A DNA stretch of 64,000 nucleotides, from NCBI GenBank assembly GCA_024275145.1, contig JAJRZR010000035.1:1-64000 (forward strand), in the 5' to 3' direction. The notes below the pieces were generated by a model. That model was not told the DNA's origin and did no database searches. It saw only the letters and a list, made by a program, of their open reading frames with translations. The DNA is from Deltaproteobacteria bacterium (GTDB taxonomy: Bacteria > Desulfobacterota > Dissulfuribacteria > Dissulfuribacterales > QOAL01). Below are positions 1 through 63,396 of this stretch, piece after piece. Numbering within the stretch: position 1 is the first letter of the stretch; each line of letters starts with the position of its first letter. The position numbers were made by a program, and so were the translations under genes.

Positions 1-148
1 CCCGTACACCTGATGCCGCGCACCTGGGACATGAAGACACCACCCAATGAACGATGTGGCTTCACGGTAAACCTTCATGTCTGCCCGGCCACTTGTACAG
101 GCACCTCCAGGTATGAAAGCACGGCCCGGAGGAGGGATACCTCATGGC
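1..148 (+). repeat. Two tandem copies of the ~80-bp structured intergenic repeat (family IR-80); first copy truncated by window edge
   Basis: cccgtacacctgatgccgcgcacctgggacatgaagacacc... followed by aaaccttcatgtctgcccggcc...ggcacctccaggtatgaaagcacggcccgg; matches copies at 39825, 51440, 61323. Confidence 0.6.
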
Positions 149-13316: not shown

Positions 13317-14123
13317 ATGACACACAACACGAATCCTAAAATACGGGATTATACGGCGGAATTCTTCGGAACCGGACAACCCCTGTCGCGGGAGAAGAGA
13401 GAGGAGTTGATACTGCGTTACGCCCCGCTGGTAAAATACGTGGCAGGCAGGCTTGCAATGAAACTACCTCCACACGTGATGCCCGACGACCTTATCAGTG
13501 CCGGTGTGATAGGGCTCATGGACGCTATCGAAAAATTCGATCCTGCCAAGAGGATCCGTTTCAAGACCTATGCGGAGTTTCGAATCAGGGGTGCCATGCT
13601 TGATGAGTTGCGCTCCATGGACTGGGTTCCCAGGTCGGTCAGGAAGAAGGCAAGCGAACTGGAAAAGACCTTCGAAAAACTCCAGAAGGATCTTGGACGC
13701 CCGCCGGAAGACGAGGAACTGGCAAAGGCTATGGGGCTGAGCATGGAAAAATACTACCAACTCCTGGACAAGACCCGCAATATCTCCTTCCTGGACATTG
13801 ACGTAATAAGAAAAAGGATGCCGGACAGCAGTGACGACGACCTCTTTGACCTCATTGCAGATGACGGTGAAAGTGATCCATTCGTAAGGATGAATCTCCA
13901 GGAGGTCAAGGAGATACTGGTCAACAGCATCAAGGCCCTTCCTGAAAAGGAAAGGCTCGTGGTATCGCTCTATTACTATGAGCAACTGACCATGAGGGAG
14001 ATCGGAGAGATAATGGGTTATACAGAATCCAGAATTTCTCAGATGCATACGAAGGCAATGTTGAAATTGCGGGCCGACCTAGCCTCCATAGGAGACGAAC
14101 ACAGGGGACGACTTCTCACATAG
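13317..14123 (+). CDS. fliA: RNA polymerase sigma-28 factor FliA
   Basis: YAPLVKYVAGRLAMKLPPHVMPDDLISAGVIGLMDAIEKFDP; region 4 LTMREIGEIMGYTESRISQMHTKAM; start ATG 13317. Confidence 0.95.
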   Translation: MTHNTNPKIRDYTAEFFGTGQPLSREKREELILRYAPLVKYVAGRLAMKLPPHVMPDDLISAGVIGLMDAIEKFDPAKRIRFKTYAEFRIRGAMLDELRSMDWVPRSVRKKASELEKTFEKLQKDLGRPPEDEELAKAMGLSMEKYYQLLDKTRNISFLDIDVIRKRMPDSSDDDLFDLIADDGESDPFVRMNLQEVKEILVNSIKALPEKERLVVSLYYYEQLTMREIGEIMGYTESRISQMHTKAMLKLRADLASIGDEHRGRLLT

Positions 14124-14190: not shown

Positions 14191-14274
14191 CCTGTGGTAA
14201 AAAATCCGGTCCATAGACCAACCTTGGGATATCGGGCAGATCCATTTGCCCATATCCCGTGAGGGGCATCACCC

Positions 14275-14530
14275 TGGATTATGCAGCTCGTAAGTTTGCC
14301 AAAGATGCAAGGCGGAAGGACACGTAAGACCTACTTGTATACTTCAACTGCCCGACAACGCAGTAAATTCGGCAAAATCGTGCGCCCCTTGCGGCTTCAA
14401 ATGCTGGATGATTTCGTTGAGAAGTGCTGCACCTTCTGGGTGAACCGAATAGGATGCTGATTTGCTTATAACATCTTGTAATTTTAACGCAATTCTATTT
14501 ATTCAGCATTTGAAGTGCATAATTTGGGAT
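14275..14530 (+). mobile_element. MITE-like interspersed element, copy A
   Basis: ggattatgcagctcgtaagtttgcc...ttcagcatttgaagtgcataatttgggat; near-identical layout to copy at 37033. Confidence 0.7.
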
Positions 14531-20055: not shown

Positions 20056-22314
20056 CTACCAGATCCCCCTGAGCCCCAATGCCTTCCTGACACTATCCAC
20101 CCTTCTTTCCAGGTCGATCCTCCAATGGGCATGGATCCTTGCGCTGGGAGGGGTTATAAGCTCTGGAAGGCCGTATACGAGCCGTCCTGTGGCATGGCTG
20201 GCCTCGATTACGGCCTCGATTGAACGGGCACCGAATTTGTATTTTGCCACAAGCAGCCGCAGAAGCAGACCCGAGGTCTTTCTTGCTGCCTTTCGCCAGT
20301 GATTGTTCATTTGATGTGCAATGATGAAGGCCCTCTTCAACAATATCCTGTTAAGCTCATCCAGGTCTGCATCCGTGGCAGAATCCCTGAAAAGATCATC
20401 CGGTATCCCTATCCCGTCGATATCCACTACCACCCTGAGCCGACTCATGAAATCCGGAATCTTGAGACCCCTGACCTGTCTGGAAGCCACTGGATCGGCA
20501 CAATGCAGCATGGCCTCCATGGAATCATAGGAATCCTTGACCCCGCCGGCAAACACGAACACCGACCTGCCAATATAGCGCGGGATACCATGGACATACG
20601 TCACGCCATCCTGCATGGATGGCAAAAAGTATCTAAGGTAACCGAATTCCTGGTCCCTATAGGGACAATCGAATTCATCCCAGAATGCTATTGGTACCCT
20701 TCCCTTCGCGACAGAGGCCCGTACAAGATCTATTGCCGAATTTATCTCCTCAGGACCTGAAAACTGGGTCAAGTTGAATTCGAAAAACTCGAATGGATTG
20801 AAATCATATCTCCGGGAGATGACCTTCGCCACCTCCTTTACGGCAAAGGATTTGCCAGAGCCTGGTGGGCCGAACACCCCTATGCAGAGCGGCCTGTTGA
20901 AGCTTTCCTTGGATACATAGCTATCCATAACCCGTTGAAGGGTGACCACCGGTGCGATTTCTGCAGGGTCTGTTGTCCTGAGATTGCCGATCTGGAACAA
21001 TCTCAGCCCACAGAATCCCCTTTTAAGGTTAACCTCATCCTTCAACTGCTTGAGGACAGAAAGGATAACGCCAACGTATCCTGGAGGACTGGCAGAAACG
21101 ATCTGTCTTTTTTTATGCCTTATAACACCGGAGCCAGAAAAGAATGACCTGAAGGCCCTCTTCCTGTCCTCGTTACAACTCTGGCATGACACTGCATCGA
21201 GTGTCTTTTCGAACTCGTGTGTAATACCTGGCAGTTCAAAAAAGCAGGGATCTTCACTGGTTTCGATAAAAGAGCACGGGCCTTTCCCCGGAAGGGTCGA
21301 TGAAAAATTCAGGTTGGGAAATTCAAGGTTTCCGTTGAAATAATAGCCCCGTTCCCTTAGTAGGTGCCAATTCATCAAAACACGCTTGGAAAAATCGAAA
21401 AAATATCCACGATTCTTTACAGGGATCCTGCCAAAGCGCAGGCAGTCTATCGCAATCATGGCGGTAACCAGGCTGTCATAACAGGGCACGGATCCACCAC
21501 GCCTTGCATTGCCCTTTTCCGGAAGGCTGCCATCCCTATGTCTAAACATACTCTTTTCAGGACCAACATAGAGAATACCATGGGGGAACATCTCAACGAC
21601 GATGTGGCACCTGAAACGACCTTCAGCCTCGCTCCAAAGGCCGACTTCAGGTGACATCAAGGCCCTTAAGGTCATGGCCACCACTGACTCCCAGACTATG
21701 GCACTGTCCATTTCCATTCGGGTGGTTTCCAGGTCAGAAAGCCTGCAAAAAAGCAAAAACTTACGGCCAAACTGCCCGGCCCAATCCTCCCAGTGGGCAG
21801 CAGTAATCCCCAGTGCCACTACCCACGCCCTTGGATTCATGGCCTTGAGAAGTCCGGCCACCTGTGGAGGGCTGCCACCGTCATCTATGATCACGATCCC
21901 GTTGTTACCACTGAGGCTTTCTCGCTTGTCCTGATCCATTTCCAGGCGGTCGGGCCTCTGTGCCCTGCCTCCGGGAGGAAGTATCTGGTGCACCATAAAC
22001 CAGCCATGGTGCTCATCTGCCAGGGATATCCCCCTTTGCTTGAAAAGCTGGAATATGTCCCTTTGCTCTCCATAGGCGATGGTGTTCACCCTTGGGGTAA
22101 GCTCCGTGGATACGAGAAAGGAGGCAAGCCAGGTCAAACACTGCTCCAGGCGCCCTTCTTCAACCGAGACATCACCTGCCAACAGCTCGATAAAATCCCC
22201 TGGGTCATAGCCATAGGCAGGAAGGCTTCCCTGCGCCAGTAGGCTCACCTCTTTCAAGGGTAAATTGGTAATTCTGGCCCTTGATCCCAAAAGTGCCAAT
22301 TTCAGGTCTACCAT
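20056..22314 (-). CDS. Large AAA-type ATPase of uncertain function, N-terminal region unassigned
   Basis: Walker A GVFGPPGSGKSFAVKEVAKVI, Walker B-like VPIAFWDEFDC; 752 aa. Confidence 0.75.
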   Translation of the reverse strand: MVDLKLALLGSRARITNLPLKEVSLLAQGSLPAYGYDPGDFIELLAGDVSVEEGRLEQCLTWLASFLVSTELTPRVNTIAYGEQRDIFQLFKQRGISLADEHHGWFMVHQILPPGGRAQRPDRLEMDQDKRESLSGNNGIVIIDDGGSPPQVAGLLKAMNPRAWVVALGITAAHWEDWAGQFGRKFLLFCRLSDLETTRMEMDSAIVWESVVAMTLRALMSPEVGLWSEAEGRFRCHIVVEMFPHGILYVGPEKSMFRHRDGSLPEKGNARRGGSVPCYDSLVTAMIAIDCLRFGRIPVKNRGYFFDFSKRVLMNWHLLRERGYYFNGNLEFPNLNFSSTLPGKGPCSFIETSEDPCFFELPGITHEFEKTLDAVSCQSCNEDRKRAFRSFFSGSGVIRHKKRQIVSASPPGYVGVILSVLKQLKDEVNLKRGFCGLRLFQIGNLRTTDPAEIAPVVTLQRVMDSYVSKESFNRPLCIGVFGPPGSGKSFAVKEVAKVISRRYDFNPFEFFEFNLTQFSGPEEINSAIDLVRASVAKGRVPIAFWDEFDCPYRDQEFGYLRYFLPSMQDGVTYVHGIPRYIGRSVFVFAGGVKDSYDSMEAMLHCADPVASRQVRGLKIPDFMSRLRVVVDIDGIGIPDDLFRDSATDADLDELNRILLKRAFIIAHQMNNHWRKAARKTSGLLLRLLVAKYKFGARSIEAVIEASHATGRLVYGLPELITPPSARIHAHWRIDLERRVDSVRKALGLRGIW

Positions 22315-22387
22315 AGTTCACTCCAGTCTGTAGTAAGGATTAGGGACGCAGCCGTCAACTAAAGATACGGCCTCCGTATTAATAGTC

Positions 22388-22442
22388 AAACATTTGTGCC
22401 TGGCCCCAGGTACGCTACCAGGGCATGAAAGCAAGCGCCTCC
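22388..22442 (+). repeat. IR-80 repeat copy (5' part)
   Basis: caaacatttgtgcctggccccaggtacgctaccagggcatgaaagcaagcgcc. Confidence 0.5.
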
Positions 22443-22588
22443 ATTATTAGATCAGTTTCGGATAAAATTTCCATTTTTTTTCCCTTTACAAATACAGGAT
22501 CTTTTGGGATAAAATTATTAGATTGCTAGACCACGCTTTATCCAAGATCATGTACCCGTTTGACTGCGACACCGACGACAAATAGTCT

Positions 22589-22667
22589 GGCGTAAAAGCT
22601 ATGCCCTCCCAGGCCGTGTTTTCATGCTATGGGTCGGTATCAAGAGTACGGGCCGCATAGGGGTTTT
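22589..22667 (-). repeat. IR-80 repeat copy
   Basis: Reverse complement AAAACCCCTATGCGGCCCGTACTCTTGATACCGACCCATAGCATGAAAACACGGCCTGGG... matches consensus. Confidence 0.75.
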
Positions 22668-22751
22668 GGATTCATCTGGCCAGCAATTTTTTCGTGGCCA
22701 CCTTTGACCACCATCCATCCTGAATAATCCAGCTTTGAAAGGAGGCAACTC

Positions 22752-23840
22752 ATGTCCAGGAGCTTTTGTGCGCCGTCCATGGGAACCGGCATCAGCAGAC
22801 GCGGATTCCTCAAGGGATGTGCCATGGCTGCAGCGGCGCTAGGCCTATCAGACGAACTCGTGCCAAGGATCGCCAGGGCCGCGGCCTCCCCACTGAAACC
22901 CCCGGTTGTCTGGCTTCATTTCCAGGAATGTACAGGGTGTTCCGAGGCACTACTCAGGGCGTCACACCCAGATATAGGGCGCCTCATCCTGGACATCATC
23001 TCCCTGGATTACCATGAAACCATAATGGCGGCCGCTGGCAACCAGGCAGAAAAGGTACTCAAGGACACCATCAGCAAGTACAAGGGCAAATTCATATGTG
23101 TGGTAGAGGGCGCGATACCCACCAAGGACAAGAGCATATACTGCAAGATAGGTGGAAGGACCGCCATGGAAATACTGGATGAGGTGGCCAGGGAATCAGC
23201 GGCCATCATAACCATAGGCACGTGTGCGTCCTTCGGTGGTGTACAGGCGGCTGCCCCGAATCCAACCGGGGCTGTGGGGGTCAGGGACCTGATAAAGGAC
23301 AGGCCGATTGTGAATATTCCAGGTTGTCCACCAAATCCCATCTCGTTTCTGGGCACTGTCTTAAATTTCCTTACGTTCAAAAGGCTTCCAGAAGCCGACC
23401 GTCTTGGCAGGCCGCTGTTTGCCTATGGCAGAAGGATCCATGACCAGTGTGAACGGCGTGCCCATTTCGATGAGGGCCGATTCGTAGAACGTTTCGGGGA
23501 CGAGGCCCACCGCAAGGGCTATTGTCTCTACAAGGCAGGCTGCAAGGGACCCGAGACCTTTTCCAACTGTCCGGCGGTACGTTTCAATGATGTAGGGGCA
23601 TGGCCCGTAGGAACAGGGCATGGCTGCATAGGGTGCACGGAGCCTGCCTTTTGGGACACAATGACCCCATTCTATGAAAGGCTTCCAGATGTCAAGATTC
23701 CCGGCAACCGGGGGATCGTTTCGAGTGCCGATAGCGCTGGCAAAAAGATCCTTGGCATAACCGCTGCGGCAATTGGCATCCACGCTGCTGTAGGCATTGG
23801 GAAGCGTGTCATAAAGGGTAAGGCTGACCAATCTGATTAA
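22752..23840 (+). CDS. [NiFe] hydrogenase small subunit (Tat-exported)
   Basis: Tat motif SRRGFLKG; VVWLHFQECTGCSEALLRASHP; GCPPNP; C-terminal TM helix. Confidence 0.96.
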   Translation: MSRSFCAPSMGTGISRRGFLKGCAMAAAALGLSDELVPRIARAAASPLKPPVVWLHFQECTGCSEALLRASHPDIGRLILDIISLDYHETIMAAAGNQAEKVLKDTISKYKGKFICVVEGAIPTKDKSIYCKIGGRTAMEILDEVARESAAIITIGTCASFGGVQAAAPNPTGAVGVRDLIKDRPIVNIPGCPPNPISFLGTVLNFLTFKRLPEADRLGRPLFAYGRRIHDQCERRAHFDEGRFVERFGDEAHRKGYCLYKAGCKGPETFSNCPAVRFNDVGAWPVGTGHGCIGCTEPAFWDTMTPFYERLPDVKIPGNRGIVSSADSAGKKILGITAAAIGIHAAVGIGKRVIKGKADQSD

Positions 23841-26222: not shown

Positions 26223-26244
26223 ATCAAGTCGGCCGAGCATGACC

Positions 26245-26515
26245 TACAATTATGCAGATTGCAAGTTTGCCGAAAAGATGCCAAGCGGAAAGGCACGCGA
26301 GATGTGCTTGGGTACCTCAAGGCTCGGCAACGCAGCAGATCAGGTAACATTACGCGACCCTTGCGGCTAAGATGCCTGAGATATAGTATATCATATCCAA
26401 TAAGCCCTGCATTTTAGGTGCAGGGTTTGATGATCTTATAAGCTGCATATAATAATTGTTTGAATTATTTAAGACAAATCATTTACTCAGACCTTTGAAA
26501 TGCATAATCTGGGAT
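26245..26515 (+). mobile_element. MITE-like interspersed element, copy B
   Basis: acaattatgcagattgcaagtttgccgaaaagatgccaagcggaaaggcacg...cctttgaaatgcataatctgggat. Confidence 0.65.
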
Positions 26516-29443: not shown

Positions 29444-29653
29444 AACAAAATTCCTCCTAAACTTCGTGCGTCCCTTATCTTTTATGTCGCCCCGAAGGGT
29501 AAAAAAAACAGCCTGTGGGCATTAGATATCTTCTCATGTAATCGAATCAAGGGCCTTTAAAAAAAGCGATCCCACGTCAGGCCTACCGGGCGGCCAGGAT
29601 CATTGACGTATCGGCGAAATATAGTATAAATCGCTTGATTCTATCGATGACGT

Positions 29654-29741
29654 GCCCGGGTGGTGAAATTGGTAGACACAAGGGACTTAAAATCCCTCGG
29701 CCTTTCCGGCCGTGCCGGTTCGACTCCGGCCCCGGGCACCA
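29654..29741 (+). tRNA. tRNA-Leu(TAA)
   Basis: gcccgggtggtgaaattggtagacac...ggttcgactccggccccgggcacca; long variable arm; anticodon TAA; encoded CCA. Confidence 0.95.
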
Positions 29742-29778: not shown

Positions 29779-29858
29779 AAACTTTCATACCTAGCCTTTG
29801 CACAGGCACCCCCGGACATAAAAATCCAGCCATGATGAAGGGCGCATTTTCACGCTCA
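29779..29858 (+). repeat. IR-80 repeat copy
   Basis: aaactttcatacctagcctttgcacaggcacccccggacataaaaatccagcc...ggcgcattttcacgc. Confidence 0.65.
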
Positions 29859-32057: not shown

Positions 32058-32216
32058 TGCCAGCAAAGGCCCGAAAATGAACCCAAGACCCAAATCCCTA
32101 CGCAGCCAGCACCTCAATACCGAACCTGCGGGCACTAGGATACGGCTCCGAAGGACGACGTATCCCTATGGCAAATCTTCATATCTACACACCTACTTGC
32201 GCGGATACCTTCAGAC

Positions 32217-33587
32217 ATGAAGACACGATCCAAGCTCAGGACATATCTTCGTATGAATCACCCGGTGGCCTTCCTGTCTGCCGCCATCCTTGCTGCCTGT
32301 TTCGCCATAGCCTGGATGATCCACGGCAATGAAAAACATACCCCCGTCACTCCAGGGTCCCCCTTGTCAGTTTCCCATCCACAGGACGTCAAAAAACCGG
32401 ACACCCCGATTGCGGACCAGCATATGAGACCTGCTAGGATCATAAGGGGGGTCATACGTTCCGGTGAAACCTTCAACAGCACCCTTGCCAGGCAAAAGGT
32501 GGATAAGAGGGTCAGTGCCGAAATAATACGTGGTCTTTCTACGGTTATCGATTTCAAAAGATGCAGGCCAGGGGAATCATTTTGCCTCAGTCTTGATCAA
32601 AAGGGACACCTCATGCAATGCCTTTATGAGAAATCACCTTTCGAAGTCTACAGGTTGCGGCCGTCGCATGAAGATCTACAAGTCCTCGAGGCAATACGGG
32701 TACCTGTAAGCCTTGAACTCCGGGTTTCCAGGATATCCGGCATAATAGAAAGCTCTCTTTTCAACTCGTTTATTAAGGCAGGAGCTACCAGCAGGCTCAC
32801 GGTGGCCTTCGCAGACATATTTGCATCCCAGATAGACTTCAATACCGAATCAAGGTCTGACGACTATTTCGAATTGATATACGAGAGGTATTTTAAAGAC
32901 GGGGTTTTCGTGGGCTATGGCAGGATTCTTGCTGCTAGATATTGCAGCCCAGGGCTCAGGGACCTGGAGGCCTACTATTATGAACCGGCGGGCAAGGAAT
33001 CCGGTCGCTATTACGATGCCAGTGGTGCAGAGCTTGGTGCATCCTTTTTAAGGTCCCCGCTTCCTGTCTACAGGCTAACCTCAAAATTCACCAGAAGACG
33101 CCTCCACCCCATACTCAAGGTCTACAGACCTCATTATGGCGTGGATCTGGCAGCACCTGTCGGAACACCTGTAATGGCCGCGGCAGATGGGTGGGTCAAA
33201 TTCGTGGGCTGGCAGAGAGGATTTGGCAGGATAGTGATCCTAGGCCACAGGGGTGGATACAGGACGTATTACGGGCATCTCTCAAGGTTCGGCCATGGTA
33301 TCAAGAAAGGGGTCAAGGTAAGACAAAAACAGGTAATAGGATACGTGGGTTCAAGTGGCCTAGCAACAGGACCACACCTGGATTACCGAATAAAACAAAA
33401 TGGGGTATTCAGGAACCCTTTCAGCCTGAAATTCAAACCCAGGTCCAGGCTTAGGGGCCTTAAGCTTGAACGTTTCAAGGCATACGTTGGAAAATGGCGT
33501 CACGAACTCAAGGAAGGAAATGACAAGGGGACGCTATTTGTTGTGACAAAAAAATTCATAGGCCCGCCAAATGGTTGGAGTGGCTAA
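32217..33587 (+). CDS. M23-family metallopeptidase (murein endopeptidase)
   Basis: RPHYGVDLAAPVGTPVMAAADGWVKFVG...YRTYYGHLSRFG...GSSGLATGPHLDYRIKQNG. Confidence 0.93.
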   Translation: MKTRSKLRTYLRMNHPVAFLSAAILAACFAIAWMIHGNEKHTPVTPGSPLSVSHPQDVKKPDTPIADQHMRPARIIRGVIRSGETFNSTLARQKVDKRVSAEIIRGLSTVIDFKRCRPGESFCLSLDQKGHLMQCLYEKSPFEVYRLRPSHEDLQVLEAIRVPVSLELRVSRISGIIESSLFNSFIKAGATSRLTVAFADIFASQIDFNTESRSDDYFELIYERYFKDGVFVGYGRILAARYCSPGLRDLEAYYYEPAGKESGRYYDASGAELGASFLRSPLPVYRLTSKFTRRRLHPILKVYRPHYGVDLAAPVGTPVMAAADGWVKFVGWQRGFGRIVILGHRGGYRTYYGHLSRFGHGIKKGVKVRQKQVIGYVGSSGLATGPHLDYRIKQNGVFRNPFSLKFKPRSRLRGLKLERFKAYVGKWRHELKEGNDKGTLFVVTKKFIGPPNGWSG

Positions 33588-36879: not shown

Positions 36880-37032
36880 GCTCCTTTAAATTCCCACGGG
36901 TGCAAGGGAGACATTGTGCCTTTGCCATATGGTTTTCTGGTACATGGGGCGTAGAAGGTTTTAAAATACACCCCCATCAGGGATGTATTTTCATGTCAGG
37001 GGGCGCCTGTACGGGGCCTGCTCAGGCATGAA

Positions 37033-37288
37033 CCCGGATTATGCAGCGCGCAAGTTTGCCGAAGACGCAAGAGGGAAGGACACGCAGACGTACTTGTGTA
37101 CTTCAACTGCCCGATAACGCATCAAATTCGGTAAATTGCGCGCCCCTTGCGGCTTCAAATGCCGGATGATTTCGTTTAGAAGTTGTTGCACCTTTCGGAT
37201 GAACTGAATAGAATGCTGATTTGCTTGTAACATCTTGTATTTTTACGCAATTCTATTTATTCAGTATTTGAAGTGCATAATTTGGGAT
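37033..37288 (+). mobile_element. MITE-like interspersed element, copy C
   Basis: ggattatgcagcgcgcaagtttgccgaag...tcagtatttgaagtgcataatttgggat. Confidence 0.7.
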
Positions 37289-39629: not shown

Positions 39630-39711
39630 ATGGACAGGTATCGCCCATCTCTGCGCCAGTGCAATGCACAATCTTGCCAACTTGTAAAGATTATCTTATC
39701 TTAGCGTGAAA

Positions 39712-39781
39712 ACTGCCTTCGGGCTGTGTTTTCGTATTCGTAATGGTGCCATTAATCACCATGGGCTACGTAAAGGTTGTA
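39712..39781 (-). repeat. IR-80 repeat copy, inverted relative to the 39825 copy
   Basis: Reverse complement ACAACCTTTACGTAGCCCATGG...GGCACC...GAAAACACAGCCCGAAGGCAGTTTTCACGC. Confidence 0.65.
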
Positions 39782-39824
39782 ATGAAAATATAGTCGCCAT
39801 CGGGAACAACAAATGGGCGCTTCC

Positions 39825-39906
39825 AAAACCTTCGTGCGGCCCGTATCTTGATGCCGCACCCATGGCATAAAAAAACACAGCCAAGGGACAAGATGTATTT
39901 TCACGC
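39825..39906 (+). repeat. IR-80 repeat copy
   Basis: aaaaccttcgtgcggcccgtatcttgatgccgcacccatggcataaaaaaacacagccaagggacaagatgtattttcacgcc. Confidence 0.75.
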
Positions 39907-39996
39907 CAAGTTGGCAAGCTAGCGGGAAAATGCATCCTAACATCGGGCAGGCAAGAACGTCTTAGAGGCGCCCGAACATCACTGGATGTATCTTAT

Positions 39997-51341: not shown

Positions 51342-51418
51342 TGGCGGGGCCGACGAGACTCGAACTCGCGACCTCTGGCGTGACAGGCCAGCGTTCTAAC
51401 CGGCTGAACTACGACCCC
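51342..51418 (-). tRNA. tRNA-Asp(GTC)
   Basis: Minus strand GGGGTCGTAGTTCAGCCGGTTAGAACGCTGGCCTGTCACGCCAG...GCCCCGCCA; encoded CCA. Confidence 0.95.
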
Positions 51419-51439: not shown

Positions 51440-51520
51440 TAAACATTCATGCGACCCATGATGTCCTTGGCGTCGCACCCCGGGGTAAAAAACACCGCCC
51501 TGGGGAAGGATATATGTTCA
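51440..51520 (+). repeat. IR-80 repeat copy between two tRNA genes
   Basis: aaacattcatgcgacccatgatgtccttggcgtcgcaccccggggtaaaaaacaccgccctggggaaggatatatgttca. Confidence 0.75.
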
Positions 51521-51525
51521 TTAAG

Positions 51526-51601
51526 TGGTAGGCGGAACAGGGCTTGAACCTGTGACCCCCGGCTTGTAAGGCCGGTGCTCTCCCAACTGAGCTATCCGCC
51601 C
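51526..51601 (-). tRNA. tRNA-Val(TAC)
   Basis: Minus strand GGGCGGATAGCTCAGTTGGGAGAGCACCGGCCTTACAAGCCGG...CCGCCTACCA. Confidence 0.95.
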
Positions 51602-52411: not shown

Positions 52412-52562
52412 ATCCAAATTATGCAGCTTGCAAATTTGTAAAGAGCAAGCCTGATTCCATAGCACCTTTTTAGTGAATGTTCACATGTCTCAAAATAGTC
52501 ATAACCGCCTTAAATGAAAGAGGAAGTGTTTTTATTCGACATTTGAAGTGCATAATTTGGGT
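52412..52562 (+). mobile_element. MITE-like interspersed element, copy D (internally deleted, ~150 bp)
   Basis: 12-bp perfect TIR: CCAAATTATGCA...TGCATAATTTGG. Confidence 0.7.
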
Positions 52563-52704
52563 CGAAGGACCATCCGGCCATGAACCAGGATCATGTGGTT
52601 CACGAGCTTGGCGAAAAGGCAAGAGCCTGGCACGAGCACGACCCATCGGTCGAATTATGCATCCAAGGGAATCGGAACCGCGGCCCTCCCCTCTATAAAG
52701 GGGT

Positions 52705-54511: not shown

Positions 54512-54580
54512 TAAACTTCCATGCGGCCCACAACCTTTGGCGCCGCATGAAGACCCGGGTTTAATTTTTATGAAGGCACC
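54512..54580 (+). repeat. IR-80 repeat copy (partial)
   Basis: aaacttccatgcggcccacaacctttggcgccgcatgaagacccggg. Confidence 0.5.
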
Positions 54581-58012: not shown

Positions 58013-59316
58013 GGTTTTTGCAAAGTAGCGTTGCGACATCATTAATATTATTGTTTTTAATCCTGGGCTGGTTTGGCCAATCCAGCGTTTCTGCCCTGGG
58101 AAAAACCACCAGCAAAAACGTAAAGACCGATGATGTATCCCACTGGCTTGTCGAACTGGAAAAAAGGCTCCCTGACAAACCCAAAGCCCAAAAAACCGCA
58201 GCAGTCCAACATTCCAATTCGGTCCATACACCCAATGCCACGCCCGTTGGCATAAAGGCACAGCCCAGTGGTAAAGAGGCTATCCCAACGGTGGAATCGC
58301 CAATGCCTCCTGGGCAGGAAATGGAAACGCATCATGAAGGAGGCGGGCCAACATCCCATAGGGTGGCAAGGATAAGCGTGGATTTTTACAAGATCGATCT
58401 GCATAACGTCTTCAGGCTCCTTGGAAAGGTCAGTGGCAAAAACATCGTGGTGGATGAAGACGTCAAGGGATCGCTGACACTGGCCCTGGATAATGTGCCC
58501 TGGACCTTTGTGCTCGAGGTCATAAAGAATCTCAAGGGACTGTCGAGCCTCGAACGCTACAATACGATAATGATCTATCCATCGGACAAAAAGATCACGT
58601 GGGCCGGTGACTCTGACACCACTGGCACCCTGGACATGGAAACACATTCCATCCAGGTGGACACCAGGCCTGGCGGAATCACGGTGAATAAAATCAGCTC
58701 CTCCACCATTCCGGCAGACGATATCATCAAGGCTGACAAGTTGATCCAACAGGCCGGACAAGAGGAAAAAAGAGGCAACATATACAAGGCATGGAAACTT
58801 ATCCAAAAGGCGGCAATCAAGTGGCCCGACAACGCCCAGCTCCAACTCAAGGCAGGGACCCTGGCGCTGAAGTCCGAGGATGAGCTGGCTGCCTATAACT
58901 TTGGTAAGGCGGCACTGAAACTTTCGCCTCAAAACTGCCAGGCAGCCACCTTGGTTGCCATCTCGCTGGCAAGGATGGGCAGGGATCAACAGGCAAGGGC
59001 CTACTTTGAAAGGGCATTGGCCGTATCTTCTAAACCACCGCTTCTTACGTTGTGGAACTATGCGGTATTTTGTTTTTCGCATGGAGATTACCGGGACAGT
59101 CTGAGACTTGCGAACAGGATAGCAACCAATTTTTCCTTGACCCCTGATGTCATCATGCTGAGGGCACGTATCTATGAACAACTTTCGTACCCCAAAAAGG
59201 CCCTAGAGGAATACCGTACCATTGTAAACGGTGGGAAAGATATACCTTTTGATATGATCAGGTATGCAAAAGCACAGATAAAAAAATTGGCGGGCCAGAA
59301 GGGGCTTGCCGAGTAG
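58009..59316 (+). CDS. STN/secretin-N-like domain plus TPR protein of the pilus operon
   Basis: ISVDFYKIDLHNVFRLLGKVSGKNIVVDEDVKGSLTLALDNVPWTFVLEVI; C-terminal TPRs. Confidence 0.75.
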   Translation: MRFLQSSVATSLILLFLILGWFGQSSVSALGKTTSKNVKTDDVSHWLVELEKRLPDKPKAQKTAAVQHSNSVHTPNATPVGIKAQPSGKEAIPTVESPMPPGQEMETHHEGGGPTSHRVARISVDFYKIDLHNVFRLLGKVSGKNIVVDEDVKGSLTLALDNVPWTFVLEVIKNLKGLSSLERYNTIMIYPSDKKITWAGDSDTTGTLDMETHSIQVDTRPGGITVNKISSSTIPADDIIKADKLIQQAGQEEKRGNIYKAWKLIQKAAIKWPDNAQLQLKAGTLALKSEDELAAYNFGKAALKLSPQNCQAATLVAISLARMGRDQQARAYFERALAVSSKPPLLTLWNYAVFCFSHGDYRDSLRLANRIATNFSLTPDVIMLRARIYEQLSYPKKALEEYRTIVNGGKDIPFDMIRYAKAQIKKLAGQKGLAE

Positions 59317-61322: not shown

Positions 61323-61401
61323 TAAACTTCACGTGGCCCGTACCCTTAACGCGCATCCCAGGGCATGAAAACACGGCCCGGCGCAGAATGTATTTTCACG
61401 G
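61323..61401 (+). repeat. IR-80 repeat copy
   Basis: taaacttcacgtggcccgtacccttaacgcgcatcccagggcatgaaaacacggcccggcgcagaatgtattttcacgg. Confidence 0.75.
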
Positions 61402-61434
61402 TGAAAATGGCAACGATACCGGGAGGGAAAAACA

Positions 61435-63396
61435 ATGCAAATCTACTTACTCGTCCTTCTGGCACTCGTGTTCTGCCAGGCCGGTCAGGTCCAGGCAGCA
61501 GACGAACCTGAGCCAACAAAAAATATCTTGGAACTCAATGAAGTCGTTGTAACGGCAACGAAGACCCCTCATACGCTCAAGGATGTACCCATAGATACTA
61601 TGGTCATCACTGCTGATGACATCGCAAGGTCCAACGCACAGAACCTGGTAGAGGTCCTTGGCCAGGTACCGGGAATCATCACCGATGTTCATGATGACAT
61701 ATTCGGTACGTATACCTGGAGGGCAAGCATGCAAGGACTCAGCTTCAACGATGGCTATGCCCTCATACTCGTAGATGGCCAGAGGATGATAGGTGCTGGT
61801 CAAAGCGGGGGCATGGGTGAATATGGCATAGGATTGAATCAAATTCCCCTTAGCATGATAAAGCGCATCGAAATAGTACAAGGCCCCGGCACTGCTCTTT
61901 ATGGAAGTGATGCCGTAACCGGTGTCATAAACATCATAACAAAGGGGCCTTCCCGTCAACCTATGGTCTCGGCCGGCGCATCCTATGGATGGTATGACGT
62001 AAAGAGCCGGCACAAAAATGGCGCCACCATCCGCCCCAGTGACAAGGATCATTACAGGAATACATCGTCTGCCCACGTATCAGTAAGCGATACCCCCTTT
62101 GAGAGGCTGGGCTACTGCCTTGATTACAGCTACGAGAAGGCGGAAGACATAAGACGGGACCCCATCGATTCATACAGGCATACTGCCCTTGGAAAACTGG
62201 ATTTCAACCTGTATCCGGGTCTGGACCTCGATCTGTCGTCGCTTCTGAGCCATTATGAAAAATCCGGCTACAGGCAGGAGGATACGTGGCGTATTGACGC
62301 CAAAATGAAATTCACCCCGAGGGATGGCCAGAGAATCCGCCTGATGGGTTACATGTATAAATGGGAATTTGATCATGGTTACCCCGGTTATGCCTATGGA
62401 TACAAACACGGAGACCAGGAAAATCGCCAGACCGAGATACAATACGACCTGACGGTGGGAAGCCTCCAACACATAACCATGGGAGGTGAATACCGAGAAC
62501 AGATCCTCGATTACATAATAGAAGGCTCATCTAACCTGATACCGGTAAAAAAGGGCATATACGTATCCAGTCTTTATCTCCAGGATGAGATGGGTCCCTT
62601 TCACAGGTTTACCGTTGTACCCGGGCTCCGCTATGATCACCACTCTGTATTCGATGACGAGGTAAACCCAAAGCTCAGCCTGAAATTCCAGGCTTCCCCC
62701 AATACCATCCTGCGTGCATCAGCGGGACGTGCCTTTAAATCCCCCACTATAAGGCAGTTATACTATCAGGCTCCCTACGAACATGGTTCCTACTTCATCA
62801 TGTCCAACCCGGAGCTTAGCCCGGAGATATCATGGGGATATTCCGCTAGTCTGGAGCACAGGATACTGGATGATCGAATGGGCCTGTGGATTTCAGGTTT
62901 CAGGAACAACATCAGGGACCTGGTGCAACGGGTTGATACTAACAAGGACTACCAGGGGAAACCCCTCTTGACATACAAGAATGTCAGCAAGGCAATGACA
63001 CAGGGGATTGAATGCATGATAAAGGCCAGCCTGATACGGCCGATAAAGTTTTCCATCGATTATACCTATACGGACTCCGAAGATCGTGACACCCATAAAG
63101 AACTTACATATGTTCCCCGCCATCATCTGGGTTTTGACGTCTCCTACGACTTTCCATCACTCGATGCCGGCCTCAGCGCCAATATCCGTTACACCGGCAA
63201 ACAATATATAAACACCAAAAATACCCGGGCTATCTCAGATCACGCAGTTGTCGGGTTCAAACTCTACAAGGATCTGATAACCCGCAAGGCAAGACTTTCC
63301 CTTAAGGCAGACAATATATTCGGGTCAAGCAAAGGCGACCAGGAAAATTTCAGGATGAACAGGACATACCTCGTACGGCTCGACCTGATGATTTAG
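61435..63396 (+). CDS. TonB-dependent outer-membrane receptor
   Basis: TonB box/plug ELNEVVVTATKTPHTLKDVPIDTMVITADDI; IEIVQGPGTALYGSDAVTGVINIITK. Confidence 0.95.
   Translation: MQIYLLVLLALVFCQAGQVQAADEPEPTKNILELNEVVVTATKTPHTLKDVPIDTMVITADDIARSNAQNLVEVLGQVPGIITDVHDDIFGTYTWRASMQGLSFNDGYALILVDGQRMIGAGQSGGMGEYGIGLNQIPLSMIKRIEIVQGPGTALYGSDAVTGVINIITKGPSRQPMVSAGASYGWYDVKSRHKNGATIRPSDKDHYRNTSSAHVSVSDTPFERLGYCLDYSYEKAEDIRRDPIDSYRHTALGKLDFNLYPGLDLDLSSLLSHYEKSGYRQEDTWRIDAKMKFTPRDGQRIRLMGYMYKWEFDHGYPGYAYGYKHGDQENRQTEIQYDLTVGSLQHITMGGEYREQILDYIIEGSSNLIPVKKGIYVSSLYLQDEMGPFHRFTVVPGLRYDHHSVFDDEVNPKLSLKFQASPNTILRASAGRAFKSPTIRQLYYQAPYEHGSYFIMSNPELSPEISWGYSASLEHRILDDRMGLWISGFRNNIRDLVQRVDTNKDYQGKPLLTYKNVSKAMTQGIECMIKASLIRPIKFSIDYTYTDSEDRDTHKELTYVPRHHLGFDVSYDFPSLDAGLSANIRYTGKQYINTKNTRAISDHAVVGFKLYKDLITRKARLSLKADNIFGSSKGDQENFRMNRTYLVRLDLMI

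Follow-up and report, generated by a model that had tools for sequence, protein, structure and literature searches.

Copies of a short unit that recur between genes of the window (the whole stretch of 64,000 nucleotides that was analysed), the best of them at 39826-39909, raise the question of whether the unit is a mobile DNA, an RNA element whose base pairing is selected, or a product of chance similarity. An initial annotation, made by eye, had left the first two readings side by side.

Detection of the repeat family in the window

A search with the unit at 39826-39909 of the genome from which the window derives (G000, the home genome) gave about 40 matches at the DNA level with E values up to 0.02, and 29 copies were aligned (alignment A1) and turned into a profile (R1). 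The profile is sequence-only because RNAalifold on this first alignment of 29 copies gave no consensus pairs, and the copies were therefore gathered without structure bias. From the window, the training set included only the unit itself and the copy at 1-71, which lies in the overlap with a contig end.

The intergenic family of about 80 bp on both strands that had been described by eye proved to be real, with a unit of about 84 nt (82-84 bp) that is dispersed, lies on both strands and is mostly intergenic. The R1 profile gave 18 matches in the window to E 10, 14 of them below 0.01 (Table 1). An HMM from the 29-copy alignment found 12 matches at E<=1e-3, compared with none in 20 dinucleotide shuffles and none in the reversed window, so that copies are commoner in the window than in shuffled sequence, a comparison like one of the two on which the initial annotation had staked its family. 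Several of its places did not hold up, since those at 14122, 22388 and 54745 are unsupported by the profile, and that at 54512 matches (E 0.004) along no more than roughly the first 34 positions. Such empty places would be expected of a chance similarity or an artefact of alignment by eye, but the result with the shuffles, and the absence of matches from most genomes of the same order under an identical search, make this explanation practically negligible.

Table 1. Copies and fragments of the repeat in the window, with the supporting matches
Feature	Coordinates	Strand	Match
Best full-length copy (core of the finding)	39826..39909	+	R1 73.5 bits, E 8.8e-22; nhmmer 1.2e-20
Strongly decayed copy adjoining the core copy	39701..39778	-	R1 19.9 bits, E 4.8e-5; nhmmer 5.6e-4
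Full-length copy on the 5' side of the gene at 61435	61324..61404	+	R1 67 bits
Copy between tRNA-Asp (51342-51418, -) and tRNA-Val (51526-51601, -)	51441..51520	+	R1 44.1 bits
Copy in the divergent gap 22314-22752	22592..22666	-	nhmmer 22592-22666; R1 43.4 bits for 22598-22666
Copy cut by the window start; complete at G000:C52:17087-17171 (overlapping contig end)	1..71	+	R1 40.6 bits
Second copy, head-to-tail with the copy at 1-71, AAA in common (..CACGGTAAACCTTCATG..)	69..140	+	nhmmer 3.2e-5; R1 72-138, E 4.6e-4
Copy absent from the initial annotation	29459..29535	+	R1 35 bits
3'-half copy, downstream of tRNA-Leu (29654-29741)	29805..29856	+	R1 28.9 bits
3'-half fragment	36963..37006	-	R1 E 4.8e-5; nhmmer 7.6e-5
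3'-half fragment	32212..32251	+	R1 E 1.9e-4
Weak piece within a predicted gene	58218..58274		R1
Possible 5' fragment, marginal	54513..54547	+	R1 E 0.004

The contig of the window begins (1-71) with the same sequence that ends contig C52 (G000:C52:17087-17231), indicating that the assembly breaks at this tandem repeat. Another dispersed repeat, of about 250 bp, was also seen in the window (14265-14530, 26237-26515, 37025-37288 and 52514-52615). Its ends resemble GGATTATGCAG.. and ..GTGCATAATTTGGG and look inverted, and several intergenic copies of it occur in the window and in both the home genome and its sister.

Copy number and taxonomic distribution

R1 found at least 150 copies in each of two genomes, the home genome and G001, the only other genome of the same genus (the sister). 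In about 1.27 Mb of the 2.65-Mb home genome, 136 and 87 R1 matches were obtained at E<=1e-3 (a few being counted twice where the stretches overlap), from which we extrapolate a total of a few hundred copies for the home genome. Elsewhere in the family, R1 at E<=0.01 gave eight copies in G002, one each in two further genomes and none in the remaining genomes, and 12 genomes of other families in the order gave none at the same threshold. The repeat family is specific to one genus and far larger than the initial annotation saw. An exact search of the GTDB species genomes with a conserved 20-mer returned only the MAG S143_34 (Deltaproteobacteria, WFZW01), which is presumed to be G001, and one site in a Thermoanaerobaculia MAG, which lies inside a gene and is a chance match. 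The IMG/VR viral contigs scanned gave no match to the repeat, and literature searches, mostly of open-access papers, returned nothing on this genus and no description of the repeat.

Genomic context

Gene calls for the context analysis came from a simple codon-usage gene finder and are approximate. By these calls, only 6 of the 134 home copies have more than half of their length inside a predicted gene, though 82% of the sequence is coding. In gaps between co-directional genes, 36 copies lie on the same strand as the genes and 41 on the opposite strand, and the copies are spread over the types of gap about in proportion to gap length. The lack of any bias in orientation or gap type makes the repeat a poor fit to terminators, leaders or 3' stabilisers. 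GC skew served as a rough indicator of the kind of lagging-strand bias that IS200/IS605 elements show, and the orientation of the copies relative to it was not significant.

Age of the copies and recent spread in the sister species

The home copies have a mean pairwise identity of 64% with a unimodal spread; the sister copies have a mean identity of 77%, and their distribution has another mode at more than 90%. At least 40 places in the sister genome are 96-100% identical to one consensus over 84 bp, and three of the sister copies are 100% identical over all 84 bases. For reference, syntenic stretches of the home and sister genomes are about 77-88% identical. For 21 of the near-identical sister copies the syntenic interval of the home genome could be examined, and 11 of these intervals hold no copy; some older copies are common to both species at one site (L143:8874 with L187). 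The home family is old and decayed and appears to be quiet now, and the sister family has expanded very recently.

We tried to define base-exact empty-site junctions at about twenty loci, where most of the home intergenic regions were too diverged. The clearest comparison (L144 with L154) revealed a composite two-copy insertion with about 11 extra bases 5' of the element. At another insertion site (L148:446-528 and L092:5428-5511), both species are occupied by copies of different subfamilies, perhaps through gene conversion or reinsertion. Four sister copies (L145:4703, L136:4226, L131:3138 and L145:271) carry an identical additional hairpin module at the 3' side (CTGCCATTCCCAGGGCAGGCACAACGAAGC..), which suggests that the element also exists in composite versions.

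Hairpins and covariation

The consensus of the young copies, folded as single-stranded DNA, forms two near-terminal hairpins with a z score of -4.3, and none of 200 shuffles folded as well. The consensuses of the two species both contain hairpin 1 (TGCGGC/GCCGCA). The second hairpin that is conserved reads CATGAARAYA.../...TGTATTTTCACG, and in the young consensus it is long (TGAAGATACAG/CTGTATTTTCA). The home consensus folds more weakly (z -1.2) and prefers a CCCC..GGGG stem, which was hairpin 2 of the initial annotation and is absent from the sister consensus; of the two hairpins drawn there, the first is therefore found in both consensuses and the second, in that form, in the home consensus only.

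The same annotation had pointed to compensatory changes in the stems. The pair GCGAC/GTCGC at 51440 is indeed present, but over 136 home copies standard pairs occupy 72.9% of the pair cells compared with 72.0% in shuffles, and pairs changed on both sides number 12 compared with 13.0 in shuffles. A tree-based null, which we used as a rough stand-in for the proposed R-scape test, gave no significant pair. Among the sister copies, one pair of hairpin 1 is changed from G-C to A-U in 12 copies, a change that was probably inherited within an older subfamily. Since the young consensus folds well and the pairs in the copies do not covary beyond shuffles, the structure belongs to the active master sequence and is not maintained in each copy. 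Their role is probably in mobility and not in the individual copies, as far as the hairpins are concerned.

These results bear on the reading of the repeat as a structured cis-acting RNA (a riboswitch-like leader, a terminator or an mRNA stabiliser) placed at many genes with its base pairing under selection. The two hairpins of the consensus, the hairpin-1 pair in which both partners changed from G-C to A-U among sister copies and the double change at 51440 are all features that such an RNA would have. However, the copies are randomly oriented to genes and prefer neither their 5' nor their 3' ends, the 136 copies lack covariation beyond shuffles, copies decay independently, those at orthologous sites have decayed or are missing, and a search against Rfam gave only tRNAs above the gathering score and no family for the repeat. 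We consider an RNA-level element under structural selection, one of the options of the initial annotation, highly improbable. Selection on RNA structure need not follow from the finding of a hairpin-rich consensus that recurs in intergenic space.

Ends of the element

The ends of the element were defined from 58 young copies as (C)T|AAAC...GGTAAA|. The dinucleotide CT lies immediately to the left of AAAC in 41 of the 58, and beyond the ends there is only a weak T at -3 and a preference for A/T at +1. Tandem copies have a single AAA in common (..GGTAAAC.., for example at 60-75 of the window). No terminal inverted repeats were found, the sequences AAAC(T/C)TTCATG.. and ..TTTTCACGGTAAA not being complementary, nor was any flanking repeat that would indicate a target duplication shared at the 58 copies. 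The element has no coding capacity. A reading as an integron attC-like site was rejected on the end motifs when set against the core-site consensus.

The element is very probably a non-autonomous mobile repeat. In kind, this agrees with the proposal of a REP/BIME-like element or transposase-mobilised palindrome in the initial annotation, to which the high copy number, the intergenic position, the near-identical sister copies, the lineage-specific insertions and the near-terminal hairpins all point. A classical MITE moved by a DDE transposase would likewise be small, intergenic, present in many copies and capable of recent expansion, but it is very unlikely here, as the crisp ends carry neither terminal inverted repeats nor a target-site duplication.

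A candidate enzyme for mobilisation

A search with PF01797 of both genomes of the genus found only RAYT-like Y1 genes. The home genome has an intact and a truncated one, and the sister has a single intact one, at L087:1177-2106. The intact genes carry the HUH and YIDLNP(I/V)RAG motifs, and the best NCBIfam match of the RAYT-like gene is the REP-associated tyrosine transposase, at a score below the curated cut-off. No TnpB or IS605 parent was found, nor any autonomous parent with the ends of the element; the mover could also be a Y1 or other transposase absent from the draft assemblies. Upstream of the sister gene, at about 50 bp, lies a half-element, and a full copy follows about 245 bp beyond its downstream end, two copies that we estimate to be within chance given the density of intergenic copies, and the intact home gene has no element within about 1.5 kb on either side. 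The truncated home paralogue is the closest to the sister enzyme (76% over 120 residues), so that in this one pair of species an intact gene goes with young copies and a broken gene with old copies. TnpA_REP enzymes cleave single-stranded DNA at CT (PMC8266576); the CT at the left end of the element matches this cut site, which by analogy may serve as weak evidence. We tentatively regard the resident RAYT-like enzyme as a candidate mover of the element, with reservations that prevail slightly over confidence.

The check for a RAYT gene that the initial annotation had proposed was positive as to the gene itself, but its conserved flanking repeat is a sequence different from the element. In five or six genomes that belong to one order (L083-L088), a GGGACAGG-type repeat lies upstream of the RAYT-like gene, its inverse lies downstream, or both are found, and these include genomes without the 84-bp element. 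The upstream repeat reads GGGGACCGG in L088 and TGGGACAGG in L086. The flanking repeat is of the GGGACAGGC(G/A)AATTATT type, and it resembles the terminal repeats that are conserved at genes of the TIRYT type. In G003 (L085), the approximately 400 bases directly upstream of the RAYT-like gene hold what appears to be the end of a CRISPR array, with the repeat GTTGCAAATCTTACCCTAAAAGCCCTCCAACTGAAAC.

One alternative is that the copies constitute a true REP/REPIN family of a REPtron, in which the repeats are the recognition sites of the resident RAYT (TnpA_REP). The occurrence of a RAYT-like gene in both species, the copies beside the sister gene, the CT as a TnpA_REP cleavage site and the truncation of the sister-like paralogue where only decayed copies occur are consistent with this alternative. 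We nevertheless find it doubtful, because in five or six genomes the GGGACAGG-type repeats and not the element border the gene, the GTAG tag is missing, the intact home gene stands without a copy in its flanks, and the copies are asymmetric units and not inverted REP doublets. An equally uncertain variant, which we think rather unlikely, is that a domesticated Y1 enzyme of the RAYT/TIRYT type mobilises in trans an asymmetric two-hairpin element that carries neither the repeats flanking the gene of that enzyme nor the GTAG tag, the hairpin shape and the CT cut deciding the substrate, with transposition still going on in the sister.

More broadly, we think it likely that the repeat is a tiny, genus-specific mobile DNA, mobilised in trans by a Y1/HUH-type enzyme and recently expanded in the sister. 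A transposase acting in trans would move each copy as one unit. The mover would most plausibly be of the Y1/HUH type and recognise, in the single-stranded state, the pair of hairpins near the ends, and the element would be joined 3' of a C(T) dinucleotide without duplication of the target. An inserted copy would have no function of its own and would then drift, and copies may survive only between genes because, as we propose, insertions in genes are lost. We infer the single-strand mechanism, the Y1 enzyme class and the role of the RAYT-like gene as mover from the features described above.

Comparison with known systems

The element adds to the miniature mobile DNAs an undescribed one that seems to have been active recently, in a deltaproteobacterial genus that has been little studied, and for it exact ends and a pair of species, one with decayed and one with active copies, are available. 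The three copies with 100% identity in one genome make its movement testable. ERIC/RU, Correia and other small mobile intergenic repeats resemble it in size class, intergenic position, RNA foldability and restriction to a lineage. The ends of the element differ from those of ERIC/RU and Correia in lacking inverted repeats, and these families are not known to be related to it in sequence.

The palindrome-associated transposable elements (PATE) of Haloquadratum (PMC3119063) likewise lack terminal inverted repeats, have palindromes near their ends, do not duplicate the target, are too short to encode a transposase and show strain-specific insertions (PMC3119063). The palindromes of PATE resemble those of IS605-type transposons in their genome (PMC3119063), whereas here there is no TnpB and only RAYT-like Y1 genes occur; three of the four PATE features that were tested are found, the exception being a related IS605 in the genome. 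REP/REPIN (BIME) families with RAYT/TnpA_REP are similar in having hundreds of intergenic palindromic copies, both decayed and conserved (PMC3116915, PMC8266576), a low-copy Y1 transposase in the genome and CT at one boundary. They differ in the GTAG (GT[AG]G) tag at the hairpin foot, which is absent from the consensus of both species, and the present element is not an inverted doublet of one REP. Across genomes another repeat borders the transposase gene, which has copies of the element on both sides in the sister and none beside the intact gene of the home genome. The resident RAYT-like gene, flanked by inverted GGGGACAGGC../..GCCTGTCCCC-type repeats, fits the TIRYT/TIRtron arrangement (PMC3733652), although the 84-bp element is not the flanking repeat of that gene. 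With three of the four PATE features present and the GTAG tag missing, the element works like PATE or REPIN and is filed in neither; it is a small mobile repeat of the non-autonomous kind and represents a family that is new.
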